Source: an uncultured Bacilli bacterium | GTDB taxonomy: Bacteria > Bacillota_I > Bacilli_A > RF39 > UBA660 | Direction of reading: 5' to 3' | NCBI GenBank assembly: GCA_944358435.1 | Contig: CALVRD010000009.1 | Span: forward strand, 1-34,589 | DNA: 34,589 nt | Part shown: in pieces, positions 4,670 to 34,523 of the stretch | Position numbering within the stretch: position 1 is the stretch's first letter | How the letters are laid out: every line of letters begins with the position of its first letter | The notes under the pieces: model-generated | The model's database searches: none | Seen by the model: only the letters and a program-made list of their open reading frames with translations | Told to the model about the DNA's origin: nothing | Translations under genes and position numbers: made by a program

Positions 4670-6289
4670 TTAATTTTCAAAAATTGGCATAATCATAGGT
4701 ACAACATGTTTTTTACGGGAAACACATCCTGGTAAGAAATACCCTTGTGGAATATTATTAACTCCATAAGCAAGTTCCATTGTATCTTTTCCTCTTGTAT
4801 TAAAGATTACATAACTACCATTTCTAATTATATCAGTAACAAATAGTGCCACTAAATTATAATTATTAGATTCAGATACTCCATCTAAAACATGTACATA
4901 TTCATCCATATCTTGAGCAATTTCTTCAAAATTCATTGTAAAGAATTGTCCTATCGCAAAGTTTTTATCTTCAACTGTATATATTTTAAAGTCATTATAT
5001 AAAACATCCTCTTTAGTCATACCTTCTAATGAAGTTCCTGCTTTCAATAAACTCATCCCATATTTACGATAATCTACTCCTGCTATACTAGCAAGTTCAT
5101 TAACTGCTTCAACATCCCTAGTAGTCGCTGTTGGGCTTTTTAAAATTAATGTATCTGATAAAATTCCTGATAAAAGAGCCCCTGCTATACTTGGAGGAAT
5201 TTCTACTTTTCTTTCTTTATACAATGTATAAACAATTGTACAAGTTGAACCAACTGCCATATTTCTAAAATTAATAGGACTAGTTGTAGTAATACTACCT
5301 AAATTATGATGATCAATAATTTCTAATATATTAGCTTCTTCAATCCCTTCAACACTTTGTAGTTTTTCATTATGATCAACTAAAATTACTTTTTTAGGAT
5401 GTTTTTCAGATAAATCAGTTATTTTTAATAAACCCAAACATTTATTATGACGATCTACAATAGGATAATTTGTATGTTTTAATCTATTATTTATATCAAT
5501 TACATTTGCAACAAATTCTGTATTTTCAAATTTAGTTGGATTATAACTTCTAATCATTGTTTTAATATAGTTTGCTAGACTTACTAATCTTGTAATATGA
5601 TATGTTGTATATGGTGTTCTTATAATATTTACACCATTTTTTCTAGCTATCTCAATATGTTTTTCTTTAATCTCAGAATCTCCTGATAAAATAATTAATT
5701 TTACTCCTGACTCTACGGCATATTCAATAATACTATGACGATCTCCAACTATTAGAATTGTCTCTTTTTTTAGTTTTACATTTTGTAAAAATGTTGTACT
5801 ACGGTAGGCTGCCACTAAAATTTGTCCTAAAATTTCTTCATCAATTCGCAGAATTTCTTCTCCTTTTAAGACATGTAATAAATTATTATAAGATGTATAT
5901 AATGCTTCAGCATTTTCATTAACAATAACATGAGATAAGTCTTTAATTGTAATAAGTCCGACAAAATAGCCTTTCTCATCAACTACTGGTATACCAGTTA
6001 AACCACTTTCTAACATTTTTTGATAACCATTATATATAGAATCATTTTCTTTAATTAAAAAATTCTTATGATAATCAATATCTTTTATTTGTAGTTTTAC
6101 ATCATTTAAATATTCCGGAGTCTTAAGATTAAAATAATCTAAAGCATATTGTGTTTCTTTATTAATATCTCCCAATACTTTAGGAACAGTATTTTCTCCT
6201 AATTTATTTTTTAAATAAGATAATCCAATAGCTGACATTACTGAATCAGAATCTGGTTTCTTATGTCCAAATATATATGTTTTACTCAT
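4670..6289 (-). CDS. Family II manganese-dependent inorganic pyrophosphatase with CBS and DRTGG regulatory domains
   Basis: This soluble enzyme hydrolyses PPi to two Pi. The N-terminal DHH domain starts with GHKKPDSDS (about 8-16). It is split by a regulatory insert of CBS1 (about 70-125), a DRTGG-like region (about 140-250) and CBS2 (about 255-295). The catalytic part resumes with LVDHNE (about 303-308), the DHH triad (326-328) and SDT, and ends in a DHHA2 domain with SRKK before the C-terminus. The 539-residue length matches the CBS-containing subgroup, in which adenine nucleotides bound to the CBS pair tune activity. It is first in the operon, behind the promoter at 6313-6340. PPi is released by polyprenyl and nucleotide-sugar synthesis, which fits the downstream genes. 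Confidence 0.93.
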   Translation of the reverse strand: MSKTYIFGHKKPDSDSVMSAIGLSYLKNKLGENTVPKVLGDINKETQYALDYFNLKTPEYLNDVKLQIKDIDYHKNFLIKENDSIYNGYQKMLESGLTGIPVVDEKGYFVGLITIKDLSHVIVNENAEALYTSYNNLLHVLKGEEILRIDEEILGQILVAAYRSTTFLQNVKLKKETILIVGDRHSIIEYAVESGVKLIILSGDSEIKEKHIEIARKNGVNIIRTPYTTYHITRLVSLANYIKTMIRSYNPTKFENTEFVANVIDINNRLKHTNYPIVDRHNKCLGLLKITDLSEKHPKKVILVDHNEKLQSVEGIEEANILEIIDHHNLGSITTTSPINFRNMAVGSTCTIVYTLYKERKVEIPPSIAGALLSGILSDTLILKSPTATTRDVEAVNELASIAGVDYRKYGMSLLKAGTSLEGMTKEDVLYNDFKIYTVEDKNFAIGQFFTMNFEEIAQDMDEYVHVLDGVSESNNYNLVALFVTDIIRNGSYVIFNTRGKDTMELAYGVNNIPQGYFLPGCVSRKKHVVPMIMPIFEN

Positions 6290-6312
6290 TCTACCACTTC
6301 TTTCTTTTTATG

Positions 6313-6340
6313 ATTTTATCACAAATAGGAAAAATGACAA
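6313..6340 (-). promoter_or_regulatory. Promoter of the pyrophosphatase-DUF368-uppP operon
   Basis: On the minus strand a -35 TTGTCA (6335-6340) is followed after 16 bases by an extended -10, TGA-TAAAAT (6313-6321). The start codon lies about 23 bases downstream. This is the only strong promoter ahead of the six-gene run. Confidence 0.7.
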
Positions 6341-6356
6341 AATAAAATTTTATTTT
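6339..6356. repeat. 18-bp A/T-only palindrome
   Basis: A perfect palindrome made only of A and T (AAAATAAAATTTTATTTT) lies between the HD-domain gene and the promoter of the pyrophosphatase operon, and it abuts the -35 box. It could be a weak terminator for the HD gene or an UP-like element. Composition alone could also produce it. Confidence 0.4.
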
Positions 6357-6370
6357 TTTTATTTATTCTC

Positions 6371-6859
6371 TTAATACATAAAGAATAACATATATAAAGA
6401 TATTAGTGCTGTCTTACAATACCTTGGAATACATTTTCCTCTTTCATAAATAGATGCTACATCATCAACAATATCTACTATCCAACTTTCTAAATACTTT
6501 GGTGGTGTAAATGTAATAGGAAACATATGTGTCTTAATAATATCTATTTGTTTCTCACTTAAATGTATAATTTTACTTGCATTTTCTACTGCTCTTTCTG
6601 GATGTTGTCTAAGTTTCGCAATTGGATTTTTATTATCTACTTCATTACTAAAGAAATCATGTAATAAAGCAGCCTCAGTTGTCTCTTTATAATCTAATTT
6701 TAAAACTTTAGTTATTATATATGAATAATATGCCACTCTTAATGAATGTTCATATCTTGTAATACCATGATGTTTTATTTCTTTTAACTTTTGATATTCA
6801 TCACATGACATAATAAAATTTACTAACTTACAAAATTCTCGGTTATTGAAATTAGCCAT
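6371..6859 (-). CDS. HD-domain phosphohydrolase
   Basis: This small cytoplasmic protein of 162 residues has an HD metal-binding fold: His38 in RYEHS, His67-Asp68 in LLHDFF, His111 in KTHMFP, and downstream Asp residues in IVDIVDD (about 128-133). The stretch around GITRYEHSLRVAYYSY and the HPE..VENA region resemble a conserved Firmicutes group of stand-alone HD hydrolases. Members of the wider family act on phosphomonoesters or nucleotides, but the substrate here is unknown. An AGAGGTG site precedes the ATG. It follows dnaB with a 127-base gap that contains its own extended -10, so it may be expressed separately. Confidence 0.8.
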   Translation of the reverse strand: MANFNNREFCKLVNFIMSCDEYQKLKEIKHHGITRYEHSLRVAYYSYIITKVLKLDYKETTEAALLHDFFSNEVDNKNPIAKLRQHPERAVENASKIIHLSEKQIDIIKTHMFPITFTPPKYLESWIVDIVDDVASIYERGKCIPRYCKTALISLYMLFFMY

Positions 6860-26439: not shown

Positions 26440-28368
26440 CTACCATATTTTTAATCTATCATTTTTATCAACAAACATTGGATTATTTTTAGAAACATTA
26501 TATACTTCATAAAATTTATCAGTTGATGCTAAAGTAGCATTTACTCTATATTTACCAGGTGAATGTGTATCTGCAAGTAATAACATCTTTGTATACTCAT
26601 CAGTTGACTTTTCAATAAATAACCTAGCAAAACTCTCATACATAGATTTAAATTCTTCTTTTGATGCTTTCTTTCTAGTCGCAATATCACTAATACATGA
26701 TATAGCCCCTAAGTCAGCAATATTTTCATCTACTGTTAATTTTCCATTTAAATAGTTCCCAGAAATAACTTCATATTTATCATAATAATCGATTACTTTT
26801 TTCTGAAGTCTCTCATAATTTTTAATATCTTCTTTAGTCCACCAATTAACCAAATTACCCTTCTCATCAAATTTAGCCCCATTTGAATCAAATGCATGAG
26901 TAATTTCATGAGCTATTATCATACCAACAGTTCCTAAATTTTCATAATAGTCTTTGTCAAAATCAACTAAATTAATCATTGCCGCTGGAAAGTTAATTGA
27001 ATTATCTTGTGGATTATAGTAAGCATTAACAATAGTCTCTCTCAATCCAAAAGACGATTCATTACTTTGTAATCTTTGATATTCATAATCAGATCTTGCC
27101 TTTAATATAGCTAAAATATTTTCTATTAATGTATTACTATTAGATAAATTATAATTATCTGAATATCTAGGATAATTAGAATCAAGTCCAATATTTACCT
27201 TAATATTTTTAGCCTTAGTAATGGCTTTTTCTCTAGTAGATTTACTTAACCAATCTAAATTTTTAAGACTATTTTCATAATAATTTAAAATATCATTAAT
27301 CATCTCTTCAATATAACTTTTAGCCTCAGTACTTAAATATTTTTGATCATACTGATAATCGATATCATATTGAAATAAATTTAAAACTATATTTCTTGCT
27401 AACTCCTCAGTAGAAGTTTGACCAACTATTCCTAATTGTTCATTTTCTAAGTCATTAGCAATTTTAGCATAATCATCAGTTAAATACTGACAATATGTTT
27501 GAAGTATCTTTAATTTTACACTTTCTTTTAAAACATCTAAATTATCATTAGTTAAAGAAGCATTAATTGCCTCATAATTACCTCTATCTAAAATACTTAT
27601 TTTTACATTATCAGGAATTATATCAAAATAAGTTGAATCTAAATTACTATATATTTTTTTTAGTTCATCTTTAGTAACTATATTATACATATTTTCAACA
27701 TCATTAAAGTAATCAGACATCTTAGATTCTTTAGCAATACTAGTATAATAATCCATTATCTTTTGAGATACATCTCTAGCTTTCTCTTTATCATAACCAT
27801 ATAATTTTAATAACTTTATTCCATATTGTTTAACAAGTGCTCTAGGATATAAGTAATCATTATCTACATAGTAATCACTAGGAGAAGAAAAATCAAACTT
27901 AACTGGATATAAATAAATCATATTTTTAGATGTATCTTTAAAATCAGCAGCAACTGTCATAGATGTAAACACCGATACTCCTAAATCGTTTTCTACAATA
28001 ATTGCTTTACTTATAAAATCTTTAATGTTAGAAGATCCATCAATTAAATTTAAATAATAAGTTAAAGTTGATAATCCACTATTATTTCTAGTCGTCGTAT
28101 TAATTACTTGATTATATAAAATTGTCATATTAGGATTAGCATTTGTCTTAATTAAATCTGAAATTATTGCCTTTACCTGATCATCTACTTTATCTTGACT
28201 ATCTTTAAAAAATCCCCAATAATATTCATCATCATTTAATTCATATTTTGAAATAATATCTTCATTAATGTAACTATAATAATCATCAGTTAATTTATTA
28301 TTTGCTAAAGAGCAACCAGTTAATAATATAATTAGTAAGGCTATTAATATCTCCTTTATATATTTCAT
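26440..28368 (-). CDS. M13-family (neprilysin/PepO-like) metallopeptidase, predicted lipoprotein
   Basis: This 642-residue zinc endopeptidase is predicted to be anchored to the outer face of the membrane. The N-terminal signal ends in a lipobox, LLTGC, with Cys19. The long helical M13_N part follows. The catalytic domain has NAYYNP (about 448-453), HEITH (about 487-491), the third ligand region ENIAD (about 548-552), and a C-terminal GKYRVNATL with a closing RLKIW; many relatives end in CxVW, so the ending is variant. The ATG at 28368 uses GGGGC overlapping the upstream stop codon; the gap to the ABC permease gene is one base. Coupling to an exporter suggests joint handling of a peptide. That is inference. 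Confidence 0.93.
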   Translation of the reverse strand: MKYIKEILIALLIILLTGCSLANNKLTDDYYSYINEDIISKYELNDDEYYWGFFKDSQDKVDDQVKAIISDLIKTNANPNMTILYNQVINTTTRNNSGLSTLTYYLNLIDGSSNIKDFISKAIIVENDLGVSVFTSMTVAADFKDTSKNMIYLYPVKFDFSSPSDYYVDNDYLYPRALVKQYGIKLLKLYGYDKEKARDVSQKIMDYYTSIAKESKMSDYFNDVENMYNIVTKDELKKIYSNLDSTYFDIIPDNVKISILDRGNYEAINASLTNDNLDVLKESVKLKILQTYCQYLTDDYAKIANDLENEQLGIVGQTSTEELARNIVLNLFQYDIDYQYDQKYLSTEAKSYIEEMINDILNYYENSLKNLDWLSKSTREKAITKAKNIKVNIGLDSNYPRYSDNYNLSNSNTLIENILAILKARSDYEYQRLQSNESSFGLRETIVNAYYNPQDNSINFPAAMINLVDFDKDYYENLGTVGMIIAHEITHAFDSNGAKFDEKGNLVNWWTKEDIKNYERLQKKVIDYYDKYEVISGNYLNGKLTVDENIADLGAISCISDIATRKKASKEEFKSMYESFARLFIEKSTDEYTKMLLLADTHSPGKYRVNATLASTDKFYEVYNVSKNNPMFVDKNDRLKIW

Positions 28369-28369
28369 A

Positions 28370-29533
28370 TTAAGCCCCAAATAAAACCTTTTCAGATTTA
28401 AATTTCTTAATTAAAAAATATAACATAATAACTATATATACTAAAGTTGATCCAATAGTAAGAAATAGATTTAAATAGTTTATATTTCCAGAATATAAAT
28501 CCATTAAAATAGTTGTATGACTAAGTATTGGTATTAAGTAAAATGCTATTGTCGAAGAAATATTTATGTATGATAGTATCATTGGTGCAATACAAACTAT
28601 TTGAAGAATTTGACCAGCAGCCTGTGCTTCTTTATAAGTCTTTGCAGAAGATGTTAACACAATTGCAATTGCCCCAATTAAGAAAGAAGCAACAATACAA
28701 ATTATTATTCCAAAGAATATTGCCCCAAAAGTAATACTAAATCCTTCATAAACTTCATACATATTTCTAGCAATAGAAAAACTTATTAAAGTTAGAATAA
28801 AACCAATTATTGAAGAAAAGATACCAATTATTACAGTTGCTATATACTTTCCTGTTATAAGTTCAGATGTTGTTATTGGTAAAGTTAAGATCGTCTCTAA
28901 AGTACCATTTTCTTTTTCTGTTGCAATAGCAGAAGTTGCCATATTAACTGCTGCCATCGCAATCGCCATAATAATATATGTAAATGAAATATCCATAACC
29001 ATATCAATCATCATACCATCAGTAGATATTTCTTCTCCATCAGGTGTTTTCATTTCATAAGTTATCTTACCATAAACGATCTCCGGATCAATATCTTCAC
29101 CTTTTAAATATAAATCACCTAAATATTTATTATAGGCATCTAAATAGGAAATTGCATAACTTCCAGCAGGAGAAGCCATAATATCATCACTAGAATATAT
29201 TATATATATGTTTTTTTCTTGATTAAAATCAATATAAGTTTCAATTTCCCCCTTATTATAAGCCTCCTTCATCTCACTAATATTTTTATAATAAGTTGGT
29301 ACAAGACGATATTCATTCAGAATACTTTTTTCAGTACTATTAAGTTCATAATTAACTCCAATATTATATTTAACACTTTCACTACCAACCATAGAATCTT
29401 CCATTTGTCCAAATAAGAAAATAAAAAAGGCAATTATAAAAGGAAATCCAAAAATTATAAAAATTGTTTTTTTATCCCTAAAAATAGAACGCAATTCTTT
29501 TTTTATAGTTATTATTATATTACTTTTCTTCAT
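28370..29533 (-). CDS. ABC-2 type exporter permease (NatB-like)
   Basis: This 387-residue membrane permease has one N-terminal segment (about 24-42), an extracytoplasmic loop of about 130 residues, and about five C-terminal segments from residue 180 on. It starts KKELRSIFRDKKTIFIIFGFPF, typical of NatB/ABC-2 permeases, and has the conserved ATEKENGTLETILTLPI coupling helix. NatAB exports Na+ in Bacillus subtilis, but relatives export other substrates. The gene overlaps its ATPase partner by 14 bases, with the ribosome binding site GGAGG inside that gene. Confidence 0.9.
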   Translation of the reverse strand: MKKSNIIITIKKELRSIFRDKKTIFIIFGFPFIIAFFIFLFGQMEDSMVGSESVKYNIGVNYELNSTEKSILNEYRLVPTYYKNISEMKEAYNKGEIETYIDFNQEKNIYIIYSSDDIMASPAGSYAISYLDAYNKYLGDLYLKGEDIDPEIVYGKITYEMKTPDGEEISTDGMMIDMVMDISFTYIIMAIAMAAVNMATSAIATEKENGTLETILTLPITTSELITGKYIATVIIGIFSSIIGFILTLISFSIARNMYEVYEGFSITFGAIFFGIIICIVASFLIGAIAIVLTSSAKTYKEAQAAGQILQIVCIAPMILSYINISSTIAFYLIPILSHTTILMDLYSGNINYLNLFLTIGSTLVYIVIMLYFLIKKFKSEKVLFGA

Positions 29534-30278
29534 AACTACCTCCTATTAAAGCAAAAAAACCATCTCTTAAATTAGTTGTATTAGTTTGTTTTCTAATCTC
29601 TTCTGGTGTTCCTATCGCAATAACACTGCCCTTATTAATCATGACAATCTTATCACAAATATTTTCTGCTTCTTCCATATAATGTGTTGAATACAAAATA
29701 CACTTATTATTCTTTTTCTCTTCTTTTACAAAATCTAAAATTACTTTACTAGATATAACATCAAGACCACTTGTTGGTTCATCTAAAATATAATATTTAG
29801 GATTATGAACTAAGCATCTAGAAATACCAGTTCTTTGATACTGTCCAGTTGAAAGTGTCTCAATACGTTGATGTTTAAAACTCTCCATTCCAAAACGTTT
29901 AATAATAGCATTTATCCTATCATCTAACTTATTTTTTGGAATATCATAATATTCACCACACATTTTAAGCAATTCATATGGAGAAATATCTTTATATAAT
30001 TTTGTATTTCCAGTTAAAAAAGCAATTTTTTTCTTTATCGCTATTTCATTTGTTTTATAATTTTCTCCATCTATTATTATTTCTCCCTCAGTTGGTGTCA
30101 TTATTCCTGCTATCATACGCAACAAAGTTGTTTTACCAGCTCCATTTGGTCCAATTATCCCAACAATTTCCCCTTCTTTAGCCGTAAAAGAAATATTATT
30201 ATCAGCCAAAAAAGAAGCTGTTTCTTTTTGATTAATTTTCTTTTGAAATTGCTTAGAAACATTTTTTACTTCTAACAT
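29520..30278 (-). CDS. ABC transporter ATP-binding protein (NatA-like)
   Basis: This 252-residue ATPase subunit has Walker A GPNGAGKTT (about 43-51), the signature LSTGQYQRTGISR (about 141-153, with Thr-Gly in place of the usual Ser-Gly-Gly-Gln order), Walker B YYILDEP, and the H-loop STHYMEE. It pairs with the downstream permease. The start ATG at 30278 is chosen because GAGGAG lies eight bases upstream; two earlier in-frame ATGs would sit on or before that site. It leads the operon with the permease and the M13 peptidase. Confidence 0.93.
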   Translation of the reverse strand: MLEVKNVSKQFQKKINQKETASFLADNNISFTAKEGEIVGIIGPNGAGKTTLLRMIAGIMTPTEGEIIIDGENYKTNEIAIKKKIAFLTGNTKLYKDISPYELLKMCGEYYDIPKNKLDDRINAIIKRFGMESFKHQRIETLSTGQYQRTGISRCLVHNPKYYILDEPTSGLDVISSKVILDFVKEEKKNNKCILYSTHYMEEAENICDKIVMINKGSVIAIGTPEEIRKQTNTTNLRDGFFALIGGSYEEK

Positions 30279-30309
30279 TTTCATTCTCCTCATCTTTATC
30301 TTTTTCTTT

Positions 30310-31631: not shown

Positions 31632-32287
31632 TGTAAGACTTTTATATATAATAAAAAGACAATAAGTCTAGTAAAATGTAATTATCCAAAAAACATTTTT
31701 ATTAGAAAGGACTTATTACTATGACAAGTATATCACATTATCAACATAGTTTAAATACTAAATATTATGCTGCTTTATTATATAGAAACGGAAATCGTTT
31801 GTAAGAGATATAAATGCCCTAAAGCATCTCTTATGCGTTAGAATAAAAGGTTTGATAAAACTAAGAACTTATTAATCGATAAATCTCATAAACTTCTATC
31901 AAAAAATCCTAACACTTATAAAAACTGATAATGATCAAGAATTTACTTACACTATGAAAACAGATAAAACACATTCTTGAGATAACCTTTTAAATAAATT
32001 AGGTATAACTGCTTAAACCCAGAGCTCCTAGACATAATAATAAAGTAAAAAGAAGTCATAAAAATGATCAACAAATATTCTATTAATATCTTAAATTCTA
32101 TTCTTATGATGATTTATTAAAACAAATGAACACATATCTTAAACGTTCCAACAATATTCCTATGCAATCATTGAATTGGCTTTCTCCACTTGAGATGAGA
32201 CAAAAATTATAAAAAAAAACAATATTCAATAATTACTAATTAACTATATAATATCGCTTTTATTTTTTATATAAATTTTGTCTAACA
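31632..32287 (+). mobile_element. Decayed, internally deleted IS481-type insertion sequence
   Basis: The segment contains a broken IS481-like transposase and is bounded by sequences that look like imperfect terminal inverted repeats. The left end begins TGTAAGACTTTTATATA at 31632. The complement of the right end, at 32287, begins TGTTAGACAAAATTTATATA. Both then continue into ATAAAAAG/ATAAAAG. About 656 bp remain, against roughly 1.1 kb for an intact element. No convincing target duplication flanks it. The transposase part is convincing; the exact ends are tentative. Confidence 0.65.
31721..32212 (+). pseudogene. IS481-family transposase remnant
   Basis: An ATG with an AAAGG site starts MTSISHYQHSLNTKYYAALL and stops after 27 codons. 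Shifting frame recovers CPKASLMR, stop, NKRFDKTKNLLIDKSHK, then KNPNTYKN. It next jumps to TDNDQEF (the second catalytic Asp region of the DDE domain). The last part is PRAPRHNNKVKRSHKNDQQIFY, stop, then KRSNNIPMQSLNWLSPLEM, the typical IS481 C-terminus. There are at least four in-frame stops and one or two frameshifts. The part between the N-terminal helix-turn-helix and the DDE core is deleted. The gene is certainly dead. Confidence 0.85.
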
Positions 32288-32309
32288 TCATTTACAATTA
32301 TACAATGAA

Positions 32310-32340
32310 AAAAGAAACAATGACTTTTATTGTTTCTTTT
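32310..32340 (-). terminator. Terminator of the HEXXH repeat protein gene
   Basis: A perfect 12-bp stem (AAAAGAAACAAT at 32310-32321 with its complement at 32329-32340) with a 7-base loop covers the stop codon. On the minus strand the 3' arm ends in a run of six T. Confidence 0.85.
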
Positions 32341-34174
32341 ATTTACTTTTACTTTCATGTTCCAGTTGCATATTTGTAATAATATCATCTTGTTTCATAC
32401 TAATAAGTTCTGCATTTATACCTTTTGCTTCTAAATAATTTTGTAATTTTTCCATGACTATTTCTGATTTTGCTATTTGTTCATTAATTGACATATATTC
32501 TACTTTATATGAATCAAAGTCACGAATTAATTCTTCAGCCTCTTCTTTTGTTCCGTAAATACCAGCTAGGGTTTCTTTTAGGCTAGAAATATCCCCTGTA
32601 TCATGAACTTTTTTAAATTCATCTGGACCAATAACTTTCATTAATGAACTGCCTAACAGTCCATCTAGTGTTGCCGGATTATAATCAAAATAATATTTAT
32701 GCATTAATGATAATAGATTATCGCCAATTTCTTCATTGGATACTCCAACTGTAGAACTTGGAATACATTCTAAAACATCATTATAATCATGACTATGAGC
32801 GCCATATTCACCATCTTTTATATAACTATATTGGATTGGATAATCTTTAGTTATTTGGCTTTTGTCTGAATAGTACTTTCTTACAATTTTCATTTCTAAT
32901 CTTGTGTCATGTGCAATTTCAATTTTAGGTGTAACTGTTGATTCATAGTTTCCTTCAGCTAAATAAGCTTGAATTAGTATATTTTCAGACATTGGTTTAT
33001 CATATTTAGCTTCATAATATTTTTCTAACATTTCTTTTATTTTAGGATTTACTTCTTTACGATTTATATCACTTTTTTCATCCAGATAATTTTCAACTTG
33101 TAAATCTATTAGTGAAATTAGTCTTATAGCATCATCTTCTGTTCCATAAATTTCTGCAAGAGCTTTAATAATAGGAGAAATATCGCCATTAAAATATGAA
33201 CTAATCATTTTCTCTGCACCTAATATTTCAATAAGAATTTTTGTAGCTATAACTGTATCGTTATATGCGACGCCTGCTGAAGGAGGATAATATTCTTGGG
33301 TTAATAGTTCAGTCATTCCCTCTTGATAGCGATAGCCAAGAGATGAATCTACTGGTATACAAAGTGAATGAGTTATTTCATGTAGTAAAATATATTCATA
33401 TGAGTTATGTATTACGTTTTCATAACAGGCATCAGGTTTTTCTAGGTTATCATTCATCTTAATTGTTGAACTTTGAAAATTCCAAGTACCACTATATTTT
33501 TTTGCTCCTGTTGTAATTTTTAAGTGACCATTTGAATATTTAATCCAATCTTTATTGATATATTTTCCTTGATCTTCTATTAAAGCATCAGCAACTTTTA
33601 AAACAAGAGCTTTATCTAAATCTGATAAATTAGCATTACTATCAATAATAGTACTATAGTCTTCAAGGGTAGTTGCTGAAAAGTTTTCTCTTGCTTCAGT
33701 ACAATAATTCATCACTGCATATGTATTTTGTATAGAATTTACATTTAACATTGTCATAAACATATTGATAGAGACAATTCCTGCAGCAAGAAGTCTCATA
33801 ATTCTAGTTTGTTTTAGATCACTATCTTCAATTCTATAAAAATAGCTTGTAGAATTATCATTATATCTAGCTAAGAGACTACTAATATTTTCATTATTTA
33901 CAAATTTTCCATTTTGTTTAAAGAACTTTAAACGAGATACTTTGTCAAAATATAATTGATACTTTTCATCGTTTATATCAACATCAGTTATATAAACATG
34001 ATTTATAGCATCTTTTGAAATCATTATGTATCTTGAAATATCATTCATAAGTGCTTTTTCTTCGTCTGTTAAGAAATATTCTTTATTATCATAGATCTTT
34101 TTATATTCTAATTGACCATTATTAAGAATATACTTATATAATATATCATTCAAAGTAAAACTTGCTATTTCCAT
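32339..34174 (-). CDS. Unknown membrane-anchored protein with HEXXH metallopeptidase signature and internal repeat
   Basis: I do not recognise this 611-residue protein as a named family. Residues 1-125 are predicted cytoplasmic. A single hydrophobic segment lies near 127-147 (LLAAGIVSINMFMTMLN). The rest should be outside. HEITH at 265-269 is followed by EGMTELL, with Glu289 exactly 20 residues after the second His, which is the gluzincin (thermolysin-like) spacing. A motif recurs: GDISPIIKALAEIYGTEDDA (about 330-349) and GDISSLKETLAGIYGTKEEA (about 527-546). Each is preceded by an ILGAEK/VIGPDE stretch. The second copy has no HEXXH. AGAGGTG precedes the ATG and a strong terminator follows. 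It is monocistronic and lies beside a dead IS. Confidence 0.7.
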   Translation of the reverse strand: MEIASFTLNDILYKYILNNGQLEYKKIYDNKEYFLTDEEKALMNDISRYIMISKDAINHVYITDVDINDEKYQLYFDKVSRLKFFKQNGKFVNNENISSLLARYNDNSTSYFYRIEDSDLKQTRIMRLLAAGIVSINMFMTMLNVNSIQNTYAVMNYCTEARENFSATTLEDYSTIIDSNANLSDLDKALVLKVADALIEDQGKYINKDWIKYSNGHLKITTGAKKYSGTWNFQSSTIKMNDNLEKPDACYENVIHNSYEYILLHEITHSLCIPVDSSLGYRYQEGMTELLTQEYYPPSAGVAYNDTVIATKILIEILGAEKMISSYFNGDISPIIKALAEIYGTEDDAIRLISLIDLQVENYLDEKSDINRKEVNPKIKEMLEKYYEAKYDKPMSENILIQAYLAEGNYESTVTPKIEIAHDTRLEMKIVRKYYSDKSQITKDYPIQYSYIKDGEYGAHSHDYNDVLECIPSSTVGVSNEEIGDNLLSLMHKYYFDYNPATLDGLLGSSLMKVIGPDEFKKVHDTGDISSLKETLAGIYGTKEEAEELIRDFDSYKVEYMSINEQIAKSEIVMEKLQNYLEAKGINAELISMKQDDIITNMQLEHESKSK

Positions 34175-34193
34175 AATACACCTCTTTATTTTT

Positions 34194-34202
34194 AGAATAT
34201 CA
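34194..34202 (-). promoter_or_regulatory. Possible promoter of the HEXXH protein gene
   Basis: On the minus strand TGA-TATTCT lies about 20 bases before the ATG with a T-rich -35. Weak evidence in very AT-rich DNA. Confidence 0.3.
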
Positions 34203-34286
34203 TAAAAATAAATAAGAATAAAAAATAATTACAGTATTTTACATTTTTTATATAAAAAAATAATAGTTAAAGATATATTTATATTT

Positions 34287-34332
34287 GATGATTAGCTATA
34301 ATTATAATAGATGATTAGCTATAATTATAATA
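34287..34332. repeat. Perfect 23-bp tandem repeat, two copies
   Basis: Two identical, directly abutting 23-bp units lie at 34287-34309 and 34310-34332. Each begins GATGATTAGC and contains the palindrome TATAATTATA, so both strands carry TATAAT in each copy. It lies about 110 bases upstream of the HEXXH gene on the promoter side. It could be a duplicated regulatory site or a simple slippage duplication. Confidence 0.9.
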
Positions 34333-34382
34333 ATAATATAAATCTAATTAATACTTGGCAATTTTGGATTATTTTATATTTA

Positions 34383-34523
34383 ATGGCGAAAGTTATATTT
34401 GCTTACAATTTTAAAAAAGCAAATAAAAATATGAAAAATGCTGGTTCTCTTACTATTTTATTATAATTATATACTGGTATTTTATCTTTATTAATGACAC
34501 CTATATTTGAATTTAAATTATAA
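34383..34523 (+). pseudogene. Broken small membrane-protein ORF
   Basis: A plus-strand frame starts MAKVIFAYNFKKANKNMKN, has a hydrophobic run, meets TAA at 34464, and continues in the same frame as LYTGILSLLMTPIFEFKL before a second TAA. One substitution would rejoin the halves into about 46 residues with one membrane segment. There is no clear ribosome binding site. A hairpin follows at once, which supports a former plus-strand transcript. It may be chance. Confidence 0.3.

Follow-up and report, generated by a model that had tools for sequence, protein, structure and literature searches.

The protein encoded between 32339 and 34174 on the reverse strand of this stretch combines an HEXXH motif with a predicted membrane span and an internal repeat, which raises the question of what kind of enzyme, if any, such an arrangement represents, and on which side of the membrane it would act. 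In what follows, the window is the whole 34,589-nucleotide stretch of DNA that was analysed. The features referred to in the text are these:

32339–34174, minus strand: whole gene, 611 residues from an ATG start, with a predicted cytosolic N-terminal part, a membrane span, a gluzincin domain and a putative dead half-copy
34007–34174, minus strand: residues 1–56, first half of the predicted cytosolic N-terminal part, common to L088, L092, L097, L100, L132 and L054
33803–34006, minus strand: residues 57–124, conserved module, predicted cytosolic, directly before the span (profile A4)
33746–33802, minus strand: residues 125–143, predicted single membrane span, N-terminus in and C-terminus out, from hydropathy and charge bias
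33074–33610, minus strand: residues 189–367, gluzincin-type catalytic domain, from profile matches and conservation
33368–33382, minus strand: HEITH, residues 265–269, predicted to supply two His ligands and the catalytic Glu (97–99% conserved, n = 78)
33320–33322, minus strand: Glu285, likely third zinc ligand, in QEGMTELL (95% conserved)
33308–33310, minus strand: Glu289, the residue named in the initial annotation and not the conserved one
33080–33262, minus strand: residues 305–365, helical half of the catalytic domain, which is repeat copy 1, in all homologues
32423–32767, minus strand: residues 470–584 (about), repeat copy 2, a half-domain that lacks both HEXXH and the EG motif, from alignment and profile
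31660–32240, strand (.): decayed insertion sequence, a neighbour and not part of the protein, with stop-ridden frames
34311–34519, plus strand: truncated EamA-like transporter pseudogene, divergent from the protease gene

The catalytic domain carries a gluzincin signature

The catalytic domain of the 611-residue protein matched the family profile at E = 2.4e-50, and a profile built without this protein and its orthologue still matched it at an E-value of about 5e-29. Across 78 distinct family cores the zinc signature is strongly conserved (His265 99%, Glu266 97%, His269 97%, Glu285 95%), HEXXH being kept in 76 of the 78 collected members. Tyr304 (95%) and Gly319 (92%) are also conserved, and position 231, which is Tyr in 88% of the cores, is Trp in the 611-residue protein. 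Both the HEXXH motif and the conserved downstream third-ligand Glu that characterize gluzincins (clan MA) were thus found. The initial annotation had proposed a gluzincin-type site on the outer face with Glu289 as the ligand. Conservation and topology (see below) bear out the site and its placement, but the choice of ligand has to be revised. Because Glu285 is 95% conserved whereas position 289 is Glu in only 51% of the 78 members and otherwise Gln, Ser or Asp, Glu285 is most likely the third ligand, the signature almost certainly reading HEXXH-x15-E with the glutamate in an (N/Q/D)EG(Y/M) motif. Glu285 lies 20 residues past His265 and 16 past His269, and Glu289 lies 20 past His269. Between HEXXH and this conserved Glu, members of the clade that includes the 611-residue protein have a median of 15 residues, those of the sister clade 31, and the family as a whole ranges from x11 to x38.

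A direct PDB sequence search with the 611-residue protein returned no relative at a meaningful E-value, and PDB profile matches were weak, with aminopeptidase N (M1 gluzincins) aligned over the HEXXH-to-Glu stretch at E = 0.04. Relatives gave PHROGs matches to ‘metallo-protease’ (1.6e-4) and ‘peptidase’ (8.6e-4), together with sub-threshold Pfam matches that include M48, M78, SprT-like, DUF2268 and DUF6782. AlphaFold2 models, built from two-sequence alignments, reached a mean pLDDT of 33 for the full protein and 46 for residues 178–400. In these low-confidence models the elements follow the order helix, three strands, helix, helix, as expected for a zincin fold, and a Foldseek search of the PDB with the 178–400 model gave no meaningful match. 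Since AlphaFold2 had only two usable sequences, we make the gluzincin claim at the level of the signature.

The family is uncatalogued and essentially restricted to one lineage

In Pfam and NCBIfam searches of the 611-residue protein no family passed the cut-off, none in the PADLOC defence library or PHROG claimed it, and literature searches found no description of the protease family. The earlier remark that no family is known with this layout therefore holds for curated libraries but not as a statement of uniqueness, since at least 24 divergent homologues from the same bacterial family share the layout. Sub-threshold matches to DUF7336 and Peripla_BP_2 lie over the helical repeat and were put down to chance. 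NCBIfam Hvo_1808 was matched by six relatives (best 4.2e-5), and none of 10 proteins that were rechecked showed such a match.

Profile A2, built from nine cores, matched 176 of the 291 genomes from the same GTDB family, mostly one to four times per genome. In the order sample 91 of 146 genomes matched, and all matching genomes listed belong to that GTDB family. The class and phylum samples gave 13 of 149 and 14 of 392 matching genomes, respectively, in each case with only one genome outside the GTDB family, and that by a weak match. No member was found in a third genome of the genus. Besides the orthologue, other sequence matches cover only the stretch around HEXXH, at 25–37% identity. At the profile sensitivity used, the protease family is, as far as sequence comparison can tell, large, very divergent and essentially lineage-restricted. 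Judged in the same way, it is an uncatalogued family of a known kind, the gluzincins, with a conserved module predicted to lie inside and, in this orthologue pair, a dead half-domain. It occurs in about 60% of the sampled genomes of one uncultured small-genome Bacilli family and hardly occurs elsewhere in the phylum sample.

Several known systems resemble the protein in part. M1 peptidases (aminopeptidase N), to which the weak profile alignment noted above points, share the HEXXH motif and, after it, a helix that bears a third-ligand motif of Glu-Gly type, but their spacing is HEXXH-x18-E, against x15 in the 611-residue protein. The Pfam family Peptidase_M1 matched neither this protein nor any of 75 members among their listed matches. 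In M13 peptidases (neprilysin type) the spacing from HEXXH to Glu is longer and the domain around the site differs; Peptidase_M13 does not match the 611-residue protein but does match, at 4e-47, the M13 protein encoded elsewhere in the window. The likeness to M13 lies in the type II layout, a cytosolic N-terminus and one span with the gluzincin outside, which an account of neprilysin describes (PMC2948513). Variable spacing to Glu and the presence of copies with a decayed motif recall the M60-like/PF13402 mucin-active gluzincins, which are surface or secreted proteins of gut microbes with HEXXH-x(8,28)-E and some decayed motifs (PMC3267712). PF13402 and PF03272 matched neither the 611-residue protein nor, among the listed matches, any of 75 members. 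BlaR1/MecR1 (M56) are membrane proteins that also join a gluzincin domain to a domain across the membrane; BlaR1, as one source describes it, has its sensor outside and its protease on the cytosolic side (PMC9834060), whereas the 611-residue protein has the reversed order, one span and no repressor neighbour. The sub-threshold Pfam matches of some relatives suggest likeness to M78 (ImmA/IrrE), M48, SprT-like, DUF2268 and DUF6782, but none passes the cut-off and none matches the 611-residue protein itself.

A conserved module precedes a single predicted span

The 611-residue protein has a single clear hydrophobic segment, at residues 125–143, of moderate hydrophobicity only (Kyte-Doolittle 1.75; 2.02 in the orthologue). 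The succession of cytosolic module, span and gluzincin core was found in at least 24 divergent members, and K+R content is higher before the span than after it in 21 of 24 layout members. A relative, L098 (1842–3662, minus strand), has an SLH domain above the Pfam cut-off at residues 157–196, between the hydrophobic segment and HEXXH, and the N-terminus of L062 is a lipoprotein-type signal. On account of the charge bias and of the SLH domain past the membrane segment in L098, we infer that the catalytic domain is placed outside. This agrees with the outer-face topology first suggested for the protein, and with the view that some 125 N-terminal residues lie inside and are joined to an outside protease. 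In a tree of the family, one half unites the module-bearing members with others that are anchored or exported, and the other half (sister group B) consists mostly of members without any span or signal peptide; support for the deep nodes is modest. Since most sister-group relatives have no membrane span, the core does not seem to be an intrinsically exported enzyme.

The module at residues 57–124 has a consensus of roughly IxYNNKxFQxFxD...FFYE.... Its profile, A4, gave 15 matches in 145 genomes; among those with a readable ORF, a short zinc-ribbon-like one is the sole exception to the presence of core and HEXXH. The cytosolic unit is present once or twice per protein, always just before the span. 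A weak profile-profile match (P = 0.0036) hints that residues 1–56 and 57–124 are possibly diverged repeats of each other. The same layout is found in a paralogue in the same genome, a 575-residue protein with HEFCH on contig 21 (G000:C21; L054, 3648–5372, minus strand).

The repeat is a second half-copy of the catalytic domain

The GDIS motif is present twice, at residues 330 and 527, as had been noticed at the outset, and the internal repeat scored 112 in local alignment against a shuffle mean of 38 (SD 6.4), with none of 2000 shuffles reaching 112. The family profile made without the 611-residue protein and its orthologue independently matched copy 2 at residues 510–561 (28.4 bits, E = 3e-7; best of 5000 shuffled controls, 11.5 bits), and pairwise alignment gives an extent of about 470–584. 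Counterparts of Tyr304, Gly319 and Asp357 are retained in copy 2 as Tyr498, Gly516 and Asp554. The initial annotation had taken the repeat for a non-catalytic module separate from the protease. This interpretation fails because copy 1 is the gluzincin domain's own helical half, present in all relatives. Copy 2 is, on alignment and profile evidence, a second half-copy of the gluzincin domain in which the helices have been kept and the zinc ligands lost. Among the members collected, this half-copy is seen only in the 611-residue protein and its orthologue. A homologous instance of duplication followed by decay is L055 (3828–5651, minus strand), a relative with two complete gluzincin cores of which the second is without HEXXH, and HEXXH has been lost in L009 and L073.

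The gene has recently been exchanged between congeners

A full-length orthologue with 93% amino acid identity is present in one other genome of the genus (L012). The block 32291–34519 is 93.8% identical to L012, the adjoining alr is 74.6% identical, and exact shared runs reach 323 bp, over copy 2. Because the gene is about 94% identical while other window genes are 73–84% identical between the same two congeneric genomes, recent horizontal exchange between congeners is the simplest reading, perhaps in more than one event. The exchanged block includes the 5′ end of the EamA-type gene, which is intact and divergent in L012 (1844–2731) and is the truncated pseudogene here. Synonymous divergence of the orthologue pair, 0.10 for the whole gene, falls from 0.25 in the N-terminus to 0.05 in copy 2. 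The overall dN/dS is 0.34, a figure underlain by few changes in a recently exchanged pair. Residues 421–560 carry four synonymous and no nonsynonymous changes, all 140 residues being identical in the orthologue. These substitutions indicate constraint on the gene in the orthologue pair, and the half-domain duplication offers an example of an inactive protease piece that is retained, apparently under constraint.

Recent exchange and patchy presence support the accessory character originally attributed to the gene, and the ‘dead IS’ reported beside it is indeed a decayed insertion sequence remnant. The first 25 bp of this element recur on four other contigs of the genome, three times inside the opening 31 bases of the contig, a pattern that assembly breaks at intact copies would be expected to produce. 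A phage or plasmid origin was rejected, as the viral contigs, phages and plasmids searched gave no match to the protein, and a defence system was rejected for want of a PADLOC match. Layout members have a mixture of neighbours, most of them housekeeping genes, among which only rmuC recurs, in one closely related subgroup. Elsewhere in the window, the M13 (neprilysin-type) peptidase at 26440–28380 has a lipoprotein-like N-terminus and lies beside an ABC transporter gene pair (28370–30293).

A surface peptidase is the favoured role

Taken together, the protein is probably an ectopeptidase with type II membrane topology that belongs to a new gluzincin family specific to this lineage, with a zinc protease outside and one span. 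About 120 N-terminal residues would stay in the cytosol and one span would cross the membrane. The outside domain is predicted to bind zinc via His265, His269 and Glu285, with Glu266 as the general base, so that proteins or peptides would be cleaved at the cell surface. The half-copy (about 470–584) would most likely sit next to the active site as an appendage for positioning the substrate or for shielding. From divergence, tandem copies, patchy presence and exchange we infer an accessory, environment-facing role rather than a housekeeping one, most likely the processing of surface or environmental peptides in a small-genome Bacilli cell. If active, the anchored members probably work at the cell surface, where such bacteria come into contact with their environment.

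Conservation of the cytosolic module, its link with the gluzincin core in this lineage and its occurrence as one or two units always just before the span would also suit a transmembrane receptor or regulator whose outside gluzincin senses or cleaves a ligand or itself while the module relays the signal, as in BlaR1 or anti-sigma receptors. However, layout members have neither a sigma factor or repressor gene nor any other recurring partner beside them, the module matches no known signalling domain, and a simple anchor or insertion signal would be conserved too; we consider such a receptor unlikely. Equally doubtful is an elaboration in which these proteins form a new class of single-span regulators, which would have spread and diversified in one uncultured Bacilli family, and whose outside gluzincin is tuned by the zinc-less half-copy and controls a dedicated cytosolic module that is seen almost only with this core. 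Dead copies occur in the family, namely the second domain of L055, the HEXXH-less L009 and L073, and copy 2 here, and no other part of the protein is as conserved between the two orthologues as copy 2. These observations could point instead to a surface protein, such as an adhesin, an immunity protein or a decoy, that binds zinc or peptides and has kept the fold but cleaves little. Copy 1 nevertheless has the full HEXXH and Glu signature, and almost all members keep HEXXH, so this seems quite improbable.

That sister group B is mostly without span or signal peptide would be in line with a protease facing the cytosol, the hydrophobic segment serving as an anchor and the catalytic domain lying inside as in the span-less relatives. 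The positive-inside bias and the SLH and lipoprotein-type relatives make this very improbable. Recent congener exchange, patchy presence, tandem paralogues and extreme divergence could also be signs of a mobile protein that acts in competition or immunity, such as a protease destroying bacteriocins or rival surface proteins. Such a role is compatible with the ectopeptidase reading, but with no match in phage or plasmid records or the defence library, and no toxin or immunity neighbours seen, it appears distinctly unlikely.

Next to the orthologue in L012, a neighbouring gene (4769–6475) encodes a protein that joins BspA-type leucine-rich repeats to an N-terminus resembling a type IV prepilin, and similar prepilin-like proteins are also encoded near several other family members.
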